Shown: one piece after another, positions 2,864 to 20,025 of the stretch | Layout of the letters: each line of letters begins with the position of its first letter | How positions within the stretch are numbered: position 1 is the stretch's first letter | The notes under the pieces: model-generated | What the model was told of the DNA's origin: nothing | Database searches by the model: none | What the model saw: only the letters and a program-made list of their open reading frames with translations | Program-made: the position numbers and the translations under genes | Origin: a virus | IMG/VR virus record: IMGVR_UViG_3300040801_002272 | Location: 1-24,715 of that record | Direction: 5' to 3' (one strand) | Length of the DNA stretch: 24,715 bases

Positions 2864-3568
2864 GTTATCGTCATTAGTGATTTTAAGAGGGTCGTTACTT
2901 GGTTGGCGGGGGGTACTCGCTTCCGGCGTGGCGACGCCCGGTGCGGCGGCACCCGGCCCTGTAGAGGCCGGTGCGGCAGGCGTATAGCCCGCTTTGGTGG
3001 CATTGTCGCGCATAGCAGCGTACACCTGTACGGACTGCATAGCGGTAAATTCCTGCTTGTTGGTGGCGGCAATGCCGGGCGTTTCAATGATTTTAGTAGC
3101 CAGCCCTAATTCTTTAGCCTCGCTGGCGTCAAACCAGGTTTCTTTGTCCATATCATCCAGTACACTTTGTAGCTCCCGGCCGGTACGCTTCTGGTAGATA
3201 GTAGCAATACCGGCGCGGAACTTATCCAGCACCTCGGCATCCTTACGCATCTGGTTGCTATCCCCCACCGAAAGGTTCCAGGGGTTGTGCCACATAATGA
3301 GCGCGTAATCGTGCATTTCGATTTCATGACCGGCCAGCAGTAGGAAGCTGGCGGCAGAAGCGCATATACCCACGTTACGCGTGGTAATGGTAGCCTTAGC
3401 GGCTAACAACTCACTAAACAGCGAATACGCGGCCACTACACTGCCGCCGGGGCTGTTAATATTGATTGTTAAATGCTGGCCGGGGCCGTCATGGCGGCGC
3501 AGCCACTCCCGCGCTACGTATACGCTATACTCGTTTATTTCACTGTCAAGAAGGAAAACCTGCCCCAT
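2411..3568 (-). CDS. ClpP/S49-like head maturation protease fused to scaffold domain
   Basis: The protein has 385 residues. Residues 1-170 form a ClpP-like serine protease: INSPGGSV at 37-44 (oxyanion region), GICASAAS around S71 as nucleophile, and MWHNPW with H94. Residues 175-235 are an Ala/Pro/Gly-rich linker. Residues 236-385 are charged and helical, with a coiled coil (KAAKQDLTNTKAALKDAEDKL), and resemble phage scaffold. The expected role is to assemble the prohead and then cleave scaffold and capsid inside it. The gene is the first of the leftward head unit and is coupled to the capsid gene by TAATG. An internal Met at residue 236 could start a separate scaffold product. Mu itself uses a different protease gene arrangement. 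Confidence 0.85.
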   Translation of the reverse strand: MGQVFLLDSEINEYSVYVAREWLRRHDGPGQHLTININSPGGSVVAAYSLFSELLAAKATITTRNVGICASAASFLLLAGHEIEMHDYALIMWHNPWNLSVGDSNQMRKDAEVLDKFRAGIATIYQKRTGRELQSVLDDMDKETWFDASEAKELGLATKIIETPGIAATNKQEFTAMQSVQVYAAMRDNATKAGYTPAAPASTGPGAAAPGVATPEASTPRQPSNDPLKITNDDNMSVQAIAAKLGCKENEVDGRVAALLEESTSQRTELKAAKQDLTNTKAALKDAEDKLSAYQQKEQAKVKADAEAAVDAAVSERRIPADDRADWLEAYLQAPERTAKQLAGITPAPKLSGVPETGSDKNDPEKDELSPFNKRLAQLEAKNEK

Positions 3569-3578
3569 AATTGGGAGG

Positions 3579-3601
3579 TAATATCAAAAATTACGATATT
3601 A
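3579..3601. promoter_or_regulatory. 7-bp perfect dyad beside the protease start
   Basis: TAATATC and GATATTA are perfect inverted copies separated by 9 bases, ending 11 bases before the protease ATG on the minus strand. Size and spacing suit a dimeric repressor or activator site. It lies in the 144-base region between the divergent leftward and rightward units. The small HTH protein encoded at 3713 is a natural candidate binder, but that is a guess. Confidence 0.45.
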
Positions 3602-3625
3602 GATAAGGAACGGAGTGCCTATAGG

Positions 3626-3662
3626 AAGCGTTAGTACGTCGATAGCGGACTAACAAACGCTT
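3626..3662. promoter_or_regulatory. Interrupted inverted repeat in the divergent control region
   Basis: AAGCGTTAGT at 3626-3635 faces ACTAACAAACGCTT at 3649-3662. The arms are complementary except for a 4-base insertion in the right arm. It could be an operator or an RNA hairpin in a 5' leader. I see no convincing Bacteroidota promoter (TTTG then TAnnTTTG) on either strand of 3569-3712. Confidence 0.35.
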
Positions 3663-5571: not shown

Positions 5572-6444
5572 ATGATAGCGATAGCAATAGCGGGTTCAAT
5601 TATATTAGGGCTTATTGGCCTATGGGTTGGGCTAGACGCTCATAAAGAAGTAGCCGCATTAAAAAAGCAGGTAGAAGGGCTTACGGCCGGAATAATGACT
5701 AACGATATTTGCCTGAATGATACGTTATTAAACCATAGTTCGCGTTTAGAGTATAACGAAGCCGTTGTCAAAAAGGCAACAGAAATTCAAAAAGCTATAA
5801 CTGATATTCTGGAAGATGTTATATCTAAGGTAAATCAACAGCGCCCCCCAGGTAACCCCCCTGAACCCCCGCAAAAGGACGTAACAATTAACGTAAACAA
5901 GTTAGTTGACAAGGTAGAGGTATGCACCCCGGCTAATGCGGTGAAAGCCGAGATGGAAGCTATTTTACACCAAGCGTCTGAAAAGAAACGCAAGGCGGCT
6001 AAAGAGGTGCCTAAATGGGTTGACCCCAGCACCGCCCCGGCTAATGAACTGCCCCGCGAAAGCGTAAGGGTTAATACGGTAACTGAGAATCCGGCGGCCG
6101 GGGTTCCGGTAAGCGAAAGTAAGGGGGCCTGCGAACCCCTAACCGAACCGTGTGTAAGCAACCACACGGCCAGCAACGGCCGCAAAGTTATGATGTTGGC
6201 CGGGTACCGTAATAGCCAGGGCGAATGGAATAAAACGGAAAGCTACCCGGTAGGGGGCGACTTTATCCGCTGCCCGTTTCAGTGTAGCATTGTCGGCAAA
6301 GAAGCCTTAATCCAGTCTACCTCTATTGAAGGCGAGGTAATTAAATCTACCTGCCAACTAAGCGGCTCATTCGTAGACCAAGCCGACCAACTACGCCGCG
6401 CCGAATACCGCCTTGTTAAACCCTTTCTAACGCCTAATGAGTAA
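5572..6444 (+). CDS. Membrane-anchored coiled-coil protein with Cys-rich C-terminal half
   Basis: The protein has 290 residues. Residues 1-21 are a membrane helix (IAIAIAGSIILGLIGLWVGL). A predicted coiled coil (about 24-90) leads to a Pro-rich linker (PPGNPPEPPQ) and an Ala/Lys/Glu-rich helix. The C-terminal 100 residues contain six Cys (for example SKGACEPLTEPC and FIRCPFQC), which could form disulphides or bind metal. Anchor plus coiled coil plus compact end domain suggests an envelope-spanning protein. No family is known to me. It overlaps the methyltransferase start by 8 bases. A host-surface or superinfection role is conceivable but unsupported. Confidence 0.6.
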   Translation: MIAIAIAGSIILGLIGLWVGLDAHKEVAALKKQVEGLTAGIMTNDICLNDTLLNHSSRLEYNEAVVKKATEIQKAITDILEDVISKVNQQRPPGNPPEPPQKDVTINVNKLVDKVEVCTPANAVKAEMEAILHQASEKKRKAAKEVPKWVDPSTAPANELPRESVRVNTVTENPAAGVPVSESKGACEPLTEPCVSNHTASNGRKVMMLAGYRNSQGEWNKTESYPVGGDFIRCPFQCSIVGKEALIQSTSIEGEVIKSTCQLSGSFVDQADQLRRAEYRLVKPFLTPNE

Positions 6445-7756
6445 GGAACAGCTAACCGTTAAGCACTGGCCGGTAGAACAGCTAAAACCGGCAGCCTATA
6501 ACCCGCGCGAGCTTACCCAACTGCAATACGAGCAGTTGCGGCAAAGCATGGAAAAGTACGGCTTTATTGACCCCTGTATAGTCAACGTGAACCCGGAACG
6601 CTTCGGCGTACTGGTAGGGGGCCACCAGCGGCTGCGTGTAGCTACGCAGTCGCTGAGCCTTACACACGTGCCGGTCGTAGAGGTGAACCTGGATATAGAG
6701 GATGAGCGCGAGCTTAACGTACGGCTTAACCGCAATACCGGTCAGTGGGATTGGGAAAAGCTGGCTAACGAGTTTGATGAAGAAGATTTATTAGAATGGG
6801 GTTTTAGTGAACGCGAGTTAGGGTTTGCTGAACAGGAGTTACCAGAGCGTAGCACCGAAGAATTAGAGGACGAAGATTACCAAAGCGAGCGCGGCAGGCT
6901 GGCTAAAGTATTTATAGCCCCACCCTTAAGCGTACTGGATAGCCGTCAGGGCTACTGGCAGGAGCGTAAACGCTATTGGTTAGAGGAAATAGGCATAACC
7001 AGCCACGCCGGACGGGAACTGCCTAATACCACTACTAAAAATGAGGATAATGAGGTAGGCGAAAAGTCAGGCGGCAGCATCTTTGACCCGGTACTAGCGG
7101 AAGTGTGCTATAAGTGGTTTTGCCCGCCTAATGGCCATATAGCCGACCCGTTCGCCGGGGGTTCGGTGCGTGGTCTGGTTGCCGCCTACCAGGGCCATAC
7201 CTACAGCGGTACTGATATTCGCAAAGAACAGGTAATAGCCAATAAGGAACAGCTAGAAAGCCATACCCTGCCGGAGCTGCCGGTTTGGGCGTGCGACGAT
7301 GGGGCCAATTTAGCCAAATACAGCCCGGCGGCTGACCTTATATTCAGTTGCCCACCTTACTACAACCTGGAACGCTACAGCGACCTTGCAGGCGACCTAA
7401 GTACGATGCTGTACAGCGATTTCCTGACCGCTTACCGGCAGATTATTGCCAATGCCTGCCAGCTGCTTAAACCTAACCGATTTGCGGTGTTCGTAGTGGG
7501 AGAGGTGCGCGAGGGTGGCTTCTACGTGGGGTTGGTAAAAGATACTATAGCCGCCTTCGAGCAAGCCGGTTGCTACCTGTATAACGACCTGGTATTCCTT
7601 ACCCCGGTGGGAAGCCTAACCCTACGGGCAGGTAAGCAAATGAATGCCAGCCGCAAAGTAGCCAAAGCCCACCAGAATGTACTGGTATTCTATAAAGGTG
7701 ACCCCAGTCAAATACCCGACAACTTCCCGGCCTTAGAACTGGAAACCGAAGATTAA
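6437..7756 (+). CDS. ParB-domain DNA methyltransferase (amino-group type)
   Basis: The protein has 439 residues. Residues 8-100 are a ParB/Spo0J-like domain with NPR near 22-24 and the GGHQR box at 61-65. Residues 210-420 are an S-adenosylmethionine-dependent DNA methyltransferase: motif I DPFAGGS at 237-243 and catalytic motif IV SCPPYYN at 304-310. Motif I precedes motif IV, as in alpha/gamma-type enzymes, and the reaction is N6-adenine or N4-cytosine methylation. ParB-methyltransferase fusions are frequent in phages and lack a paired nuclease, so they usually protect phage DNA. It lies directly upstream of the terminase genes. Target sequence and m6A versus m4C cannot be read from the motifs. 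Confidence 0.88.
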   Translation: MSKEQLTVKHWPVEQLKPAAYNPRELTQLQYEQLRQSMEKYGFIDPCIVNVNPERFGVLVGGHQRLRVATQSLSLTHVPVVEVNLDIEDERELNVRLNRNTGQWDWEKLANEFDEEDLLEWGFSERELGFAEQELPERSTEELEDEDYQSERGRLAKVFIAPPLSVLDSRQGYWQERKRYWLEEIGITSHAGRELPNTTTKNEDNEVGEKSGGSIFDPVLAEVCYKWFCPPNGHIADPFAGGSVRGLVAAYQGHTYSGTDIRKEQVIANKEQLESHTLPELPVWACDDGANLAKYSPAADLIFSCPPYYNLERYSDLAGDLSTMLYSDFLTAYRQIIANACQLLKPNRFAVFVVGEVREGGFYVGLVKDTIAAFEQAGCYLYNDLVFLTPVGSLTLRAGKQMNASRKVAKAHQNVLVFYKGDPSQIPDNFPALELETED

Positions 7757-15404: not shown

Positions 15405-17930
15405 TTACGCACTTTTCGGCGCAGGTTGATTAAATAAAGTAGGTACATTATGCTGCTTATACTCCGCCTCCCGGCAGTACATTACCCCGTCTTTCCAATA
15501 TAGCGGATTTAACTCAATTCCTATGCCGTAGCGGTTAGCCGGAATGCAACGGTACGGAACGCTCATTAGGCCGCCGAAGGGGTCAAGAACTACATCCCCC
15601 TCATTGCTGTAGCGGGTAATAGCCCGGTCAATTATATCGAACTGTAGCGGGCAAACGTGCTTTTCCTTCTTCTTACCGGCCTGGTTAGCATTTAGCGTAC
15701 GCATCCGGTTTACGTACCAAACCCATTCGCTTTTACTTTTTGGCTGTAGGGTCATAAACTTAGCACTTAGCTTGCCCATTTCGTCTAATTGCTCACTAAT
15801 CGCTAAATGTTGCTGGTAGTCGTAGCGCGTAGTTTCGCAATGCTTGCCCCAGGCTTTGCCTATCTGGCTCAAGTCCAGCTTACGCAGCTCCTCGGGTTTA
15901 AGTAGCCGTTCGCCGCTGGTCAGCCATTCGGCGTGGGCATCCAACTGCCACCGGCCGCGTGTGTAGGTTTCTTTACTTTTTACGACCGGCACGTCGGCGT
16001 AAGCGTTGCTTTGGTCAGTCGGTGCCTTACGGAATACTAACAGGTATTCCGGGGAGCCGCACCCCATCTTAGTACCATCCTTGCATTGCTCAGTCCACCC
16101 CAGGCGGTAGGTCTGGTTATTTTCAGCCACCACGTCGGTAGGGATAAAGTGTTTACCTAGCAGGTGAAAGCCGTGCTTTTCAAAGGCCGCCACCGTTTGG
16201 CCGCTGAAGTCAATCAGGCTGGTAAATCCTACCCCGTTCTGGTAGCTAAACCGGATCCTGTCTTTAACGTGGATAGCCGCCACCCGGCCGGGCTGTAGTA
16301 CTCGCAGTAGTTCAGGTATAAGAAAGCCTAGCTGTTCAAAAAACCCTTCGTTACCGTCGTTGTGGCCCATGTCGTTATAACTCTCGCAGTATTCGTACTG
16401 GTCTGAAAACGGAATACTGGTTAGCACCATCCCTACGGAATTATCCGCCATGTCCATAACTTCCGGCACGCAATCATTATGCACGGCTTTCCAGCCCTGG
16501 CCGCTTTGCTGCTGACGTTCCACGCCAATACTTCGTTTAAGTTCAGTAGTTGAGGCGGCCGAGCTTAGGCCGTACTTTTTAATAATTTCGCTCATTTGAT
16601 TAGTCATTTCGTTATGTCGCGCCCACTTCGCTAGGAGAACTTTTAGTATTTCATCTTCCGCGTCGCTGTAGATTATATCAATCTCCACCTGTTCGGGCTG
16701 CAAGAACCGGTATATGCGGTGCACCGCCTGTATGAAGTCTTTGAACCGGTAATCTATCCCTACAAATACAGCCCGGTGGCAATGGCGCTGGAAGTTACAG
16801 CCGCTGCCGGCTATCTCCGGTTTAGTACTTAAGTACTGAAAATCGCCCACCTTAAAGCCTACCATATTACGTTCGCGCTCTAGCCAGTTCTGGCTACCAA
16901 ATACGCTAACTGATTTGGGTACCAGTTTGGAAATAGCCTTGCGCTCATCTTCCAGGTGGTGCCACAGTAAAAAGTGCTTTTCCGGTTCAGCCTGTATAAT
17001 TTCCTGCATTTTGGCTAAACGCGCGCCCATAGAGGCGCGCTTTTCCTTAGCCGCCGCCGGTAGGCTCTTGCTGGGGTCGCTGAACATCTTAACATTTCCG
17101 TCGCGGTCGTAACCAATCGGCCTTTCCTCTACCGTTACGCGGTGGTAATTTACTTTCAGGGGCGGCAGGTCGTAGCCTTCGTCGGAGTACCCTAAATCAG
17201 AAGGTTTCTGAATAATCAGCATCCAGCTACGTACCCAAAGCCAGAACTCTTTCTCTTTATGGGGGTATAGGGTAAGCTCACCGGCCTTCTGGCTGTTACG
17301 CTGGAAGAAGCGCGTAAGGGCCTGCCCCCGGTCCATTACGCCTAAGAACTGGGCGTAGTTCAGCAGTTCGGTGTACTCGTTCGGGGCCGGGGTGGCAGTG
17401 GCAATGTAGCGGTACGGCACGGCCGCAAACGCGCTTAGTATGTAGTCGGTGGTTTGGGTGTCCAGGTTGCGGATAATGTCGCCCTCGTCAAAACTCACAC
17501 CGCCGAAGTAGGAGGGGTCAAACTTACCCATCCGGATGCGCTCGTAATTGGTCAGGAATATAACGCCCTCGTTAAGGTTATAAATCTGCTTCACCTCGGC
17601 CATTTCCTGCACGTAGTGTACCTGTCTGATTAAGCCTAACAGCTCGGCATCGTCTTGGAACTCGTCAGCCACCGAAAGCGGTAGGCCTATAAGGAAGGGC
17701 TTACCGGTTTCAGCCCATACGTGGCGGGCTATTTCAAGCTGCATAACAGTTTTGCCTAAACCGAAGCTTGCGCCTATAGCGCGGCGGCCGCCCTCTAAGC
17801 ACCACTGCACTATATCGCGCTGGTGGGGCTTTAAAATAGGGTTTATTTCACCCTTAAAATTAAACCCGTAAGCCGGGGTTTGTATAATTTTGGACTCTAA
17901 AAAAGCTTGGTATTTATCTTGCTTAGTCAT
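15405..17930 (-). CDS. SF2 helicase fused to DNA methyltransferase
   Basis: The protein has 841 residues. Residues 30-430 are an SF2/SNF2-like helicase: Walker A SFGLGKT at 55-61, motif II SFDEGD at 146-151 (DEGD rather than DEAH), motif III TATPAPNEY at 178-186, and motif VI QAVHRIYR at 401-408. Residues 475-825 are an amino-methyltransferase: motif IV TSIPFSDQY at 504-512 and motif I VVLDPFGG at 780-787, so the order is beta-type. The core SIPF departs from the usual (D/N/S)PP(Y/F). Long single-chain helicase-methyltransferases are known in phages and are thought to modify DNA while moving along it. The start overlaps the m5C methyltransferase stop by 8 bases. A type I-like restriction role is unlikely because no nuclease motif is seen. 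Confidence 0.85.
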   Translation of the reverse strand: MTKQDKYQAFLESKIIQTPAYGFNFKGEINPILKPHQRDIVQWCLEGGRRAIGASFGLGKTVMQLEIARHVWAETGKPFLIGLPLSVADEFQDDAELLGLIRQVHYVQEMAEVKQIYNLNEGVIFLTNYERIRMGKFDPSYFGGVSFDEGDIIRNLDTQTTDYILSAFAAVPYRYIATATPAPNEYTELLNYAQFLGVMDRGQALTRFFQRNSQKAGELTLYPHKEKEFWLWVRSWMLIIQKPSDLGYSDEGYDLPPLKVNYHRVTVEERPIGYDRDGNVKMFSDPSKSLPAAAKEKRASMGARLAKMQEIIQAEPEKHFLLWHHLEDERKAISKLVPKSVSVFGSQNWLERERNMVGFKVGDFQYLSTKPEIAGSGCNFQRHCHRAVFVGIDYRFKDFIQAVHRIYRFLQPEQVEIDIIYSDAEDEILKVLLAKWARHNEMTNQMSEIIKKYGLSSAASTTELKRSIGVERQQQSGQGWKAVHNDCVPEVMDMADNSVGMVLTSIPFSDQYEYCESYNDMGHNDGNEGFFEQLGFLIPELLRVLQPGRVAAIHVKDRIRFSYQNGVGFTSLIDFSGQTVAAFEKHGFHLLGKHFIPTDVVAENNQTYRLGWTEQCKDGTKMGCGSPEYLLVFRKAPTDQSNAYADVPVVKSKETYTRGRWQLDAHAEWLTSGERLLKPEELRKLDLSQIGKAWGKHCETTRYDYQQHLAISEQLDEMGKLSAKFMTLQPKSKSEWVWYVNRMRTLNANQAGKKKEKHVCPLQFDIIDRAITRYSNEGDVVLDPFGGLMSVPYRCIPANRYGIGIELNPLYWKDGVMYCREAEYKQHNVPTLFNQPAPKSA

Positions 17931-18909
17931 TGGGTTTTTGGTTAAAAAGTTGGGTTAATTCGTATTGGTTAATAGCTTGGAATATCTGGTAAGCTACTTG
18001 GGGAACTATGGCGTTACCGTACCCTTTCAGGCTTTCGTTTCGCCACTTTGAAAAGGTAATTCCGTCCAATTCGGCGGAAACCCCATCATTTCCGCCACAA
18101 ACCGGGGGTTGAGTTGGCCAGTTTTGCCATTGTCTACCAGAAAACCCGGCACTGAACCTCTGCCCTTCCGGCTTGCCGGTAGCGTAGCATTCTTGCCGTC
18201 CTGTGCTGTCGGCGTTGGAATAAGACCGTATTCCGGCCTTTTGCTGCTGTGGTACTTTGCCTGTACAAAATCCTGATAGGTTACCATGCTGCTGGTTGGC
18301 GTGGGTGCTAATCCCGACGCTACCACATCGCTCAGTTTTGGATAATAAGTTTTTCCACTTTTTCGTCTGATTCGCCTGTTCTCGTCCAGCTTTTTGGCGC
18401 CGCTCTTGACGTCGGAACTTATAGGCGTGGGCAACAAACCAGACCCTTTCCCTTTTGTGCGGGGCGTTGAGGCCGCAAGCTGGAAGTACAAACGGTTGTA
18501 CCTCGTACCCTTCAACCTCCAGATCAGCCTGCACCTGCTCGAATACCAAGCCCCTGTTCCAACTAAGTATTCCAGAAACGTTTTCACCCACAACCCACGC
18601 CGGTTGAACTTCGCGAATTGCTCTAAGCATTTCCGGCCAGAGGTGGCGGTCATCTTCCGTTCCTTTTCGTTGCCCGGCAACGCTGTAGGGCTGGCAGGGG
18701 AAACCTCCGGAAATAACGTCAACGGTTCCCCAGTATGGTGTGAAGTCTGTTTTTTTGATATCGTCATGGCTGATAGCATTAGGCCAGTAGTAGGCTAGTA
18801 TTTGGCGGCAGAATTGATTTATTTCGCAGTGGGCTACATTGTTCCACCCGGCGGCTTCGGCGGCTAAATCAAAGCCTCCTATACCACTGAATAGGCTTAG
18901 GTGATTCAT
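17923..18909 (-). CDS. dcm: Cytosine-C5 DNA methyltransferase
   Basis: The protein has 328 residues and all core m5C motifs: I LFSGIGGFD (6-14), IV GGFPCQPYS with catalytic C72, VI ENVSG (109-113), VIII KRERVWFVA (152-160), and X GYGNAIVPQVAYQIFQAI (296-313). The target-recognition region (165-265) is short and Gln/Ser-rich, with repeated HAN/NAD-type steps. A typical motif IX is not evident in this frame. The enzyme transfers a methyl group to cytosine C5 in a target that cannot be read from sequence. It has no cognate nuclease beside it, although a PD-(D/E)XK nuclease gene is two genes away. A second 250-codon frame lies wholly inside it. It overlaps the helicase-methyltransferase by 8 bases. 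Confidence 0.92.
   Translation of the reverse strand: MNHLSLFSGIGGFDLAAEAAGWNNVAHCEINQFCRQILAYYWPNAISHDDIKKTDFTPYWGTVDVISGGFPCQPYSVAGQRKGTEDDRHLWPEMLRAIREVQPAWVVGENVSGILSWNRGLVFEQVQADLEVEGYEVQPFVLPACGLNAPHKRERVWFVAHAYKFRRQERRQKAGREQANQTKKWKNLLSKTERCGSVGISTHANQQHGNLSGFCTGKVPQQQKAGIRSYSNADSTGRQECYATGKPEGQRFSAGFSGRQWQNWPTQPPVCGGNDGVSAELDGITFSKWRNESLKGYGNAIVPQVAYQIFQAINQYELTQLFNQKPND
18027..18779 (-). CDS. Overlapping ORF inside dcm (LPTP-repeat protein)
   Basis: A 250-codon frame, in another frame of the same strand, lies entirely inside the m5C methyltransferase gene. Its product has SGRKCLEQF near 47-55, LPTPISSD (116-123), APTPTSS (158-164) and IPTPTAQD (187-194) repeats, and ends LNPRFVAEMMGFPPNWTELPF (223-243). 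I recall many phage and prophage proteins with LPTPTxxD repeats and this ending. They are usually called hypothetical or methyltransferase-like. The ending resembles the m5C motif IX pattern (L..RE...LMGFP). The dcm frame is intact from motif I to X, so this is not a frameshift remnant. Whether it is translated is unknown. Starts at 18779, 18767 or 18653 are possible. Confidence 0.45.
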   Translation of the reverse strand: MLSAMTISKKQTSHHTGEPLTLFPEVSPASPTALPGNEKERKMTATSGRKCLEQFAKFNRRGLWVKTFLEYLVGTGAWYSSRCRLIWRLKGTRYNRLYFQLAASTPRTKGKGSGLLPTPISSDVKSGAKKLDENRRIRRKSGKTYYPKLSDVVASGLAPTPTSSMVTYQDFVQAKYHSSKRPEYGLIPTPTAQDGKNATLPASRKGRGSVPGFLVDNGKTGQLNPRFVAEMMGFPPNWTELPFQSGETKA

Positions 18910-18913
18910 AAGG

Positions 18914-19402
18914 TTAGATCCTCGCGGCCTGATCGTATGGGTTGCGGATGCGGATGCGCTGACCGGTTAGCTTATGCTCAAAATAAGCCCATTTGCTGGT
19001 TTCGCTGAACGCGGCCAGCGTCCATTCGTTCGGGTTCTGGTTTACCGGGTCCAGCCCCGCAGGCGGCGGGTTTCCGTCTTGTTGCCCGCTATGGTTTGGG
19101 CTACTAACGGCCCGGTCATAAGTAGGGGGATTTCCTTTAATTTTGGTTGTAATTTGGTGTTCATGGTAGTTATGTTTGGGGTTAATTCTTACTTGTAAAT
19201 AATCGCTGCTTAATTCTATCCAGGGCGTAAAGCCGTTACCAAGTAGCCAGCGTAGGGCAGATATAAATTTTCCAGGGTCCTTACTGGTTTCGTCTATCCA
19301 GTGGGTACGGGGGCGGCGGGCGGTTTCCGCTAAATCTCGTTCGTCTAGTAGCCAGCCGCACACCCGGTTCAGGTAATCGTAATTCAGGTTGGGGCTTTCC
19401 AT
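18914..19402 (-). CDS. Hypothetical protein
   Basis: The protein has 162 residues. The N-terminal half is helical (LNRVCGWLLDERDLAETAR, then KFISALRWLLGNGF). A Pro/Gly/Asn-rich linker (GNPPPAGLDPVNQNPN) leads to a short beta-rich end (KWAYFEHKLTGQRIRIRNP). No family is recognised. It overlaps the nuclease gene by 19 bases and is 4 bases from the m5C methyltransferase start, so it belongs to the DNA-processing operon. A role as partner of either neighbour is possible but not supported by motifs. Confidence 0.6.
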   Translation of the reverse strand: MESPNLNYDYLNRVCGWLLDERDLAETARRPRTHWIDETSKDPGKFISALRWLLGNGFTPWIELSSDYLQVRINPKHNYHEHQITTKIKGNPPTYDRAVSSPNHSGQQDGNPPPAGLDPVNQNPNEWTLAAFSETSKWAYFEHKLTGQRIRIRNPYDQAARI

Positions 19403-20025
19403 ATCGCATCCTCAAGAAGTTGCATTACGCGCGTGGTCTGCTTGTTAATCTGCCGGGGCGTGCAGCGTAGCACCCGCCAGCCTAAGAGCGTGGCGGTGTT
19501 GTACTTTTCCATGTCAGCCAAGAACCCTTTAGGCTGGGTATGCCGCCCGCCGCTGTGTACGCCGCCTTCTACCTCCAGGGCTATTCGGTGTTCCGGGATA
19601 GCCAGGTCAAGCTTCCAGCGGCGCGTAGGGTGAAACCGGTGCTCGGCTACGACCGCTACACCCAGCTCCTGGCTGAACAGCTTGGCGTAGTAGCGGGTAT
19701 TGGTTTCAGGTTGGGGTAGCTTGGTTTTAGCGACCTTGCCTTTACCAGCCTTAGCCCTACCACCACCGGCGGTACGCTTACCGGCCTTACCAGCCTTACC
19801 CCCCTTAGCCGGTAATTTACCACTACCCCCGTATAGGGGGTTAGGGGGGTGGGTTGTATACCCCCCTTTAGGGGGGGATATACAAACCCCCCCACCGTTG
19901 TACCCCTTAGTAGGGTTATTAGGGGTAGTACGGAAATCTATTTCCGTAGCAGGGGTAAAATAGCCCGTTAGCGGGGCGATGCTTTCAGGTAAGGTGTTTG
20001 TACTATATAGGGTATTAAAGTTCAT
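19384..20025 (-). CDS. PD-(D/E)XK endonuclease with low-complexity linker
   Basis: The protein has 213 residues. The C-terminal half (about 105-213) fits a small phage endonuclease type: YYAKLFSQELG, then EHRFHPTRRWKLDLAIP with D140, ALEVEGG with E151 and E153, a following GGRHTQPKGF, and KYNTATLLGWRVLRCTP. Residues D140 and E151-V-E153 are the likely PD-(D/E)XK metal site. Proteins of this type are usually found in phage replication or recombination modules and may cut branched DNA. Residues 41-100 are a Gly/Lys/Pro-rich linker encoded by a palindromic G/C-run element (19844-19893). Vsr-like repair linked to the nearby dcm is an alternative. Confidence 0.75.
   Translation of the reverse strand: MNFNTLYSTNTLPESIAPLTGYFTPATEIDFRTTPNNPTKGYNGGGVCISPPKGGYTTHPPNPLYGGSGKLPAKGGKAGKAGKRTAGGGRAKAGKGKVAKTKLPQPETNTRYYAKLFSQELGVAVVAEHRFHPTRRWKLDLAIPEHRIALEVEGGVHSGGRHTQPKGFLADMEKYNTATLLGWRVLRCTPRQINKQTTRVMQLLEDAIWKAPT
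19844..19893. repeat. 50-bp imperfect palindrome of G and C runs inside the nuclease gene
   Basis: The left arm at 19844-19866 (six G, TGGG, TTGTATA, six C) and the right arm at 19871-19893 (seven G, ATATACAAA, seven C) are nearly inverted copies around TTTA. Flanking G-runs at 19836-19853 also suit a quadruplex. It codes for ISPPKGGYTTHPPN in the nuclease linker, like in-frame insertions of REP-type repeats seen in other bacteria. Confidence 0.8.

Follow-up and report, generated by a model that had tools for sequence, protein, structure and literature searches.

The window analyzed here is the whole 24,715-base stretch of a virus record. It is a phage fragment, encoding a Clp-type head protease, a Mu-type portal, and a terminase. 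A DUF6371 protein, together with many Bacteroidota relatives of the nested gene, suggests by inference a host among the Bacteroidota. On the minus strand, the dcm gene encodes the catalytic chain of an m5C DNA methyltransferase (α). A second frame (β) lies wholly within it at +1. The first-pass annotation had placed a 250-codon frame at 18027-18779 inside the methyltransferase, and this position is exact. The locus presents the following features:

17923-18909 (-): α subunit gene (dcm), m5C DNA methyltransferase catalytic chain, 328 aa, motifs I-VIII and X (PF00145, 2e-45; phrog_363, 6e-78)
18027-18779 (-): β subunit gene, 250 aa, ATG start, wholly within α in the +1 frame
18780-18909 (-): α-only N-terminal segment (motif I), internal control
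18447-18779 (-): overlap segment 1, α motifs IV-VIII and β N-terminal domain
18135-18446 (-): overlap segment 2, LPTP-repeat region, probable target recognition domain in the β frame; the α frame is an open, unconstrained linker
18423-18437 (-): β LPTP repeat 1, LLPTP, β residues 115-119
18294-18308 (-): β LPTP repeat 2, APTPT (within LAPTPT), β residues 158-162
18207-18221 (-): β LPTP repeat 3, IPTPT (within LIPTPT), β residues 187-191
18051-18113 (-): motif IX-like LNPRFVAEMMGFPPNWTELPF in the β frame, β residues 223-243
18001-18024 (-): α motif X (GYGNAIVP), right after the β stop codon

Other genes of the window are also worth recording. Directly downstream of the nested gene, at 15405-17930 (-), an 841-aa phage helicase (phrog_16) is fused to an N4/N6 DNA methyltransferase domain (PF01555). 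Another N4/N6 DNA methyltransferase domain, at 6437-7756 (+), is fused to a ParB N-terminal domain. The 213-aa ORF at 19384-20025 (-) has a low-complexity N-terminal third (PPKGGYTTHPPNPLYGG, then K/G-rich), followed by the conserved phage domain phrog_503. Translation through a repeat element may account for its first part.

The α chain carries motifs I (LFSGIGGF), IV (GGFPCQPYS), VI (GENV), VIII (HKRERVW), and X, the latter with residues G298, N299, and P303 invariant. The presence of I, IV (PCQ), VI (ENV), VIII, and X together qualifies it as a C5-cytosine DNA methyltransferase (PF00145). The match to this family is limited to residues 1-239. By sequence inspection, a motif IX of the LTPRE..RLxGFP type is absent from the α frame, as had been reported for a frame otherwise running from motif I to X. 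So, α does not qualify as a complete single-chain enzyme: the target recognition domain and motif IX are not in the catalytic chain. We class it as one chain, the catalytic one, of a split enzyme because it is without motif IX, and because its LPTP region is neutral in α and unstructured in the model. More precisely, the AF2 model of α superposes on M.HhaI with Z 21 (196 residues, 3.1 Å). Residues 192-258 and 266-299 are mostly below a pLDDT of 50, and the motif X helix is confident. A HhaI-like catalytic fold, a disordered linker, and a confident motif X helix agree with the linker reading obtained from selection.

The β frame belongs to phrog_1008 (1.5e-30, profile positions 24-283 of 329). 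It means that the family of phage proteins mentioned in the first-pass annotation exists. The family is annotated 'DNA methyltransferase'; its window member lacks catalytic motifs and is read in another frame than the catalytic chain. The three (L/A/I)PTP repeats and the motif IX-like end that had been noticed in this frame are all found, the repeats as LLPTP, LAPTPT, and LIPTPT. In repeat 3, L187, P188, T189, and P190 are each at least 90% conserved (52 sequences). The motif IX-like segment has L223, F227, M231, M232, P235, W238, P242, and F243 invariant in the same set. It also gives a weak, unprompted phmmer match to M.HhaI 262-294 (E 0.38). The assignment as motif IX remains putative. It rests on the motif, on its position ahead of motif X in single-chain relatives, and on this weak match. 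A search of the β profile against the PDB found no C5 methyltransferase and nothing relevant. The AF2 model of β alone is poor (pLDDT 57), with most of residues 41-110 at pLDDT 56-81. Two helices and a hairpin are predicted for the N-terminal domain (residues 46-108), and the structural search with the β model gave no match above Z 2.9 and no clear fold match.

The longest open run of the +1 frame in dcm reaches 255 codons. Synonymous shuffles, which retain the protein and its codons, have a mean of 90 and a maximum of 238, so none of 20,000 reproduces it. The eight other long genes of the window have open runs as in their own shuffles. We then counted stops in 80 IMG/VR relatives picked by dcm similarity only (62 clusters at 80% α identity). 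In the β-homologous part, delimited by the dcm alignment, the +1 frame has 20 stops against 346 expected. Outside this part, the same relatives have 398 against 383 expected. Stop codons in close relatives had been named as the result that would refute a second coding frame; these relatives keep the frame open. One of the counts gave zero stops in the α frame, partly by construction, since the ORFs were taken stop to stop. The second frame is also kept in named phages of Paenibacillus, Lacticaseibacillus, Bacteroides, and Synechococcus at approximately 30-40% identity. The same holds for plasmids of Bacteroides, Leptospira, and an archaeon.

All 81 loci examined have an in-frame ATG for β, mostly near the same position. 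A Shine-Dalgarno sequence precedes the β ATG in only 1 of 81 relatives, against a background of 21%. This signal is uninformative in these hosts: in the same genomes, it precedes 19 of 71 α starts, little above background. At a second ATG site, where α has Tyr/His followed by a codon starting with G, the codon that makes the ATG is used in 48 of 58 cases. This is only weakly above its use elsewhere.

We estimated ω in both frames at once from 52 close pairs. Single-base differences were classed by their effect in the two frames, with the opportunities as denominator. Intervals were obtained by bootstrap over pairs, with kappa 2; results were similar at 1 and 4. The α-only N-terminus shows purifying selection in α (ω = 0.07) and none in frame 2 (ω = 1.14), as expected because there is no β there. 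In the β N-terminal segment, α is constrained (ω = 0.086) and β less so (ω = 0.33). Changes creating a β stop occur there at 0.003 per site, compared with 0.059 for other changes silent in α. The LPTP segment presents the opposite pattern, with ω = 0.09 [0.06-0.12] in β and 1.02 [0.69-1.46] in α. The recognition region is therefore read in β, and α in this segment is an open, free linker to motif X. Both frames are constrained in the motif IX segment (α 0.10, β 0.10). Past the β stop, α has ω = 0.087 and frame 2 does not depart from neutrality. Amino-acid selection thus acts on both frames, and switches from one to the other segment by segment. An absence of constraint beyond that of the dcm frame had been given as a second ground for refutation; the frame-2 constraint is in fact large.

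The same analysis was made in more distant relatives. In the enterobacterial clade of E. coli PT62 prophage type, the +1 frame has 0 stops against 98 expected from the start to motif IX. Its LPTP region shows ω = 0.72 [0.31-1.74] in α and 0.09 in β, with 0.07 for β in motif IX. The locus L277 of the PT62 prophage itself holds two different nested α/β methyltransferase genes within 3 kb (1-926 and 2898-3654). In the second, the β frame covers nearly all of α and continues beyond its stop.

Other phages carry the recognition-plus-IX module as part of the catalytic chain. The actinophages Wachhund and PFR1 have motifs I-VIII, LPTP/IX, and X all in a single chain. In Vash, Samy, and ArV1, the first ORF has motifs I-VIII and the second has LPTP, IX, and X; the two ORFs are consecutive or partly overlapping. 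In the single-chain actinophage clade, α is constrained throughout, including the LPTP region (ω = 0.13) and motif IX (ω = 0.00). The +1 frame of this clade has approximately as many stops as expected from motifs I-VIII through motif IX, with ω not different from 1. The module is thus fused, split, or nested in different loci, and selection follows the module and not the frame.

Some members present particular arrangements. In Mycobacterium phage Wachhund (L282, 1126-1659), the +1 frame keeps a 178-codon open stretch that matches the β N-terminal profile (E 9e-24); the clade as a whole has no stop depletion there. Gordonia phage CheeseTouch (L010, 2771-3851) and Streptomyces phage Raleigh (L283, 980-2539) have motifs IX and X in the α frame. 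Beta-like sequence is still in their +1 frame, with clear LPTP repeats in CheeseTouch, which is an intermediate architecture.

Outside phages, phrog_1008 matches appear in 13 of 369 Gammaproteobacteria genomes. A β-pattern scan with one genome per species gave 133 relatives, mostly Bacteroidota. Of these, 80 bacterial genome loci were examined: 75 have the full +1 overlap with a complete α, and the remaining five are cut or frame-shifted copies, also overlapping at +1. We found no β without α among the phage, plasmid, E. coli, 80 bacterial-genome, and Gammaproteobacteria loci. We considered that β might be a separate, unrelated gene and rejected this, because it never stands without α in any locus set examined. 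Public records label α only, β only, or both as 'DNA methyltransferase'.

We consider it very probable that a single stretch of DNA encodes a two-subunit m5C methyltransferase. Catalysis (motifs I-VIII and X) would belong to α, and target recognition with motif IX to β. Expression, complex formation, and methylation are inferred. The first-pass annotation had proposed that a partner protein, encoded within the methyltransferase gene itself, may act together with the enzyme. This proposal is now strongly supported by the open frame and the large constraint beyond dcm; the production of both proteins and their assembly into a complex are inferred. The α chain would provide AdoMet binding, the catalytic PCQ loop, ENV, and motif VIII, then a long, open, sequence-neutral linker, and finally motif X. 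We infer that β is translated from its own ATG, about 43 codons into α. It would contribute its N-terminal domain, the LPTP-repeat region, and motif IX. The LPTP-repeat region is the most likely target recognition domain, although DNA reading by the repeats is an inference. Both chains may assemble into one enzyme of M.HhaI-like plan, where β would give the DNA-recognition lobe missing from α. Without proteomic data, we infer that full-length α is made because the window-type linker is kept open and motif X is conserved.

The second frame could merely result from dcm codon use and from the HAN/NAD codons repeated in the recognition region, with α the only protein made. At +1, conserved α residues by themselves make frame 2 appear conserved. 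Likewise, with the codons that α uses, fewer stops are expected at +1 than at +2 (approximately 320 against 1,520 for the same codons, figures that come from a count taken inside the β match and are partly circular). However, the shuffles retain the dcm protein and its codons and never yield the open frame. In the LPTP region it is α that is neutral (ω about 1.0) and frame 2 that is conserved (about 0.09). This is repeated in the PT62-type clade and is the opposite in the single-chain relatives. Stop counts, two-frame ω, shuffles, and independent clades lead us to reject this explanation, to which we give practically no credence. The relationship first suggested is in fact reversed: the HAN/NAD repeats are a by-product of the LPTP repeats, because the dcm amino acids are neutral there and those of frame 2 are conserved.

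Two other explanations accept that the second frame is read. Programmed ribosomal frameshifting might join α motifs I-VIII to LPTP/IX as one polypeptide, without separate initiation of β. Single-chain relatives exist, and the module order is that of a normal C5 methyltransferase, both in its favour. Nevertheless, we regard it as improbable. The β frame is already constrained ahead of the LPTP region, with β stops avoided, which a downstream shift would not require. A +1 shift would also lose motif X, which α keeps conserved beyond its open linker, so two shifts would be required, and the β ATG is found in every locus examined, mostly near the same place. Alternatively, β could be made for another role, for example to block host restriction or to act as a regulator, and not be part of the methyltransferase. 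Its N-terminal domain, with no clear fold match or evident counterpart in standard C5 methyltransferases, leaves room for this. Still, motif IX is in β and missing from α, Wachhund and PFR1 fuse the LPTP/IX module to the catalytic chain, and three locus sets have no β without α. We judge such a role very unlikely.

The two-subunit methyltransferase has known counterparts. In M.EcoHK31I (YGGCCR, E. coli), the gene of the large polypeptide also encodes the small one, in an alternative frame, and both are needed for activity. M.EaeI is similar. Of the two M.EcoHK31I polypeptides, motifs I-VIII and X belong to the large one and motif IX to the small one; the target recognition domain was predicted to lie in the large subunit (PMC3404938). 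The window presents the same division: a large chain with I-VIII and X but not IX, and a small chain with IX. As in M.EcoHK31I, the small chain is nested in the large gene in another frame. Because the motif split matches, we take the window to hold a natural two-subunit methyltransferase working like M.EcoHK31I, with expression, complex, and methylation inferred. In contrast to the published placement for M.EcoHK31I, selection on the recognition region acts on the small nested chain, both in the window and in the PT62-type clade. A further difference is the window β itself, of 250 aa with LPTP repeats. Searches of E. coli genomes found other nested pairs, and nothing identifiable as EcoHK31I.

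M.AquI (CYCGRG) is likewise a C5 methyltransferase divided into two chains, naturally split after motif VIII (PMC3404938). Its second chain comprises part of the variable region, IX, and X, whereas motif X remains in α in the window. The M.AquI-like placement of motif X is found in Streptomyces phages Vash and Samy, and in a Streptomyces plasmid (L177). M.HhaI and M.HaeIII have the catalytic fold and motif order in common with α; unlike the window enzyme, they combine catalysis, the recognition domain, and motif IX in one chain. In the open-access papers searched, we found no description of the phenomenon beyond M.EcoHK31I and M.AquI.

Compared with the known split enzyme of E. coli, our results show that the pattern is widespread, and the evolutionary evidence assigns a job to each frame. 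It is likely that a large class of phage and bacterial C5 methyltransferases has the recognition domain in a frame other than the catalytic one. The recognition/motif IX module would have moved between frames, giving nested, split, and single-chain forms. Where the module is nested, the catalytic frame is an unconstrained linker across the recognition region. Specificity could then diversify while the constrained parts of the catalytic chain stay as they are. Among the dcm-type genes of phages, prophages, and plasmids, many are probably only half-annotated, and the nested frame is where to look for their sequence specificity. Cloning α alone, or codon-optimising it, would destroy β, and the enzyme could be wrongly scored as inactive. 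With constraint divided along the sequence, the selection map is also an unusually clear example from nature of how two proteins share the same DNA, and the single-chain relatives are a built-in control.

Finally, a few loci depart from the general pattern. L043-L046 (near 3088) and L174 (near 3497) have a stop in the α linker, and L043-L046 also have MMS in place of MMG in the β motif IX. Both frames are broken in L278 (near 3239). These are probably decaying copies, or loci where the α pieces are made separately. In a Paludibacter MAG (L209, 2583-3800), the α N-terminus is in the β frame, as after a single-base indel. This join is either a real fusion or an assembly error.
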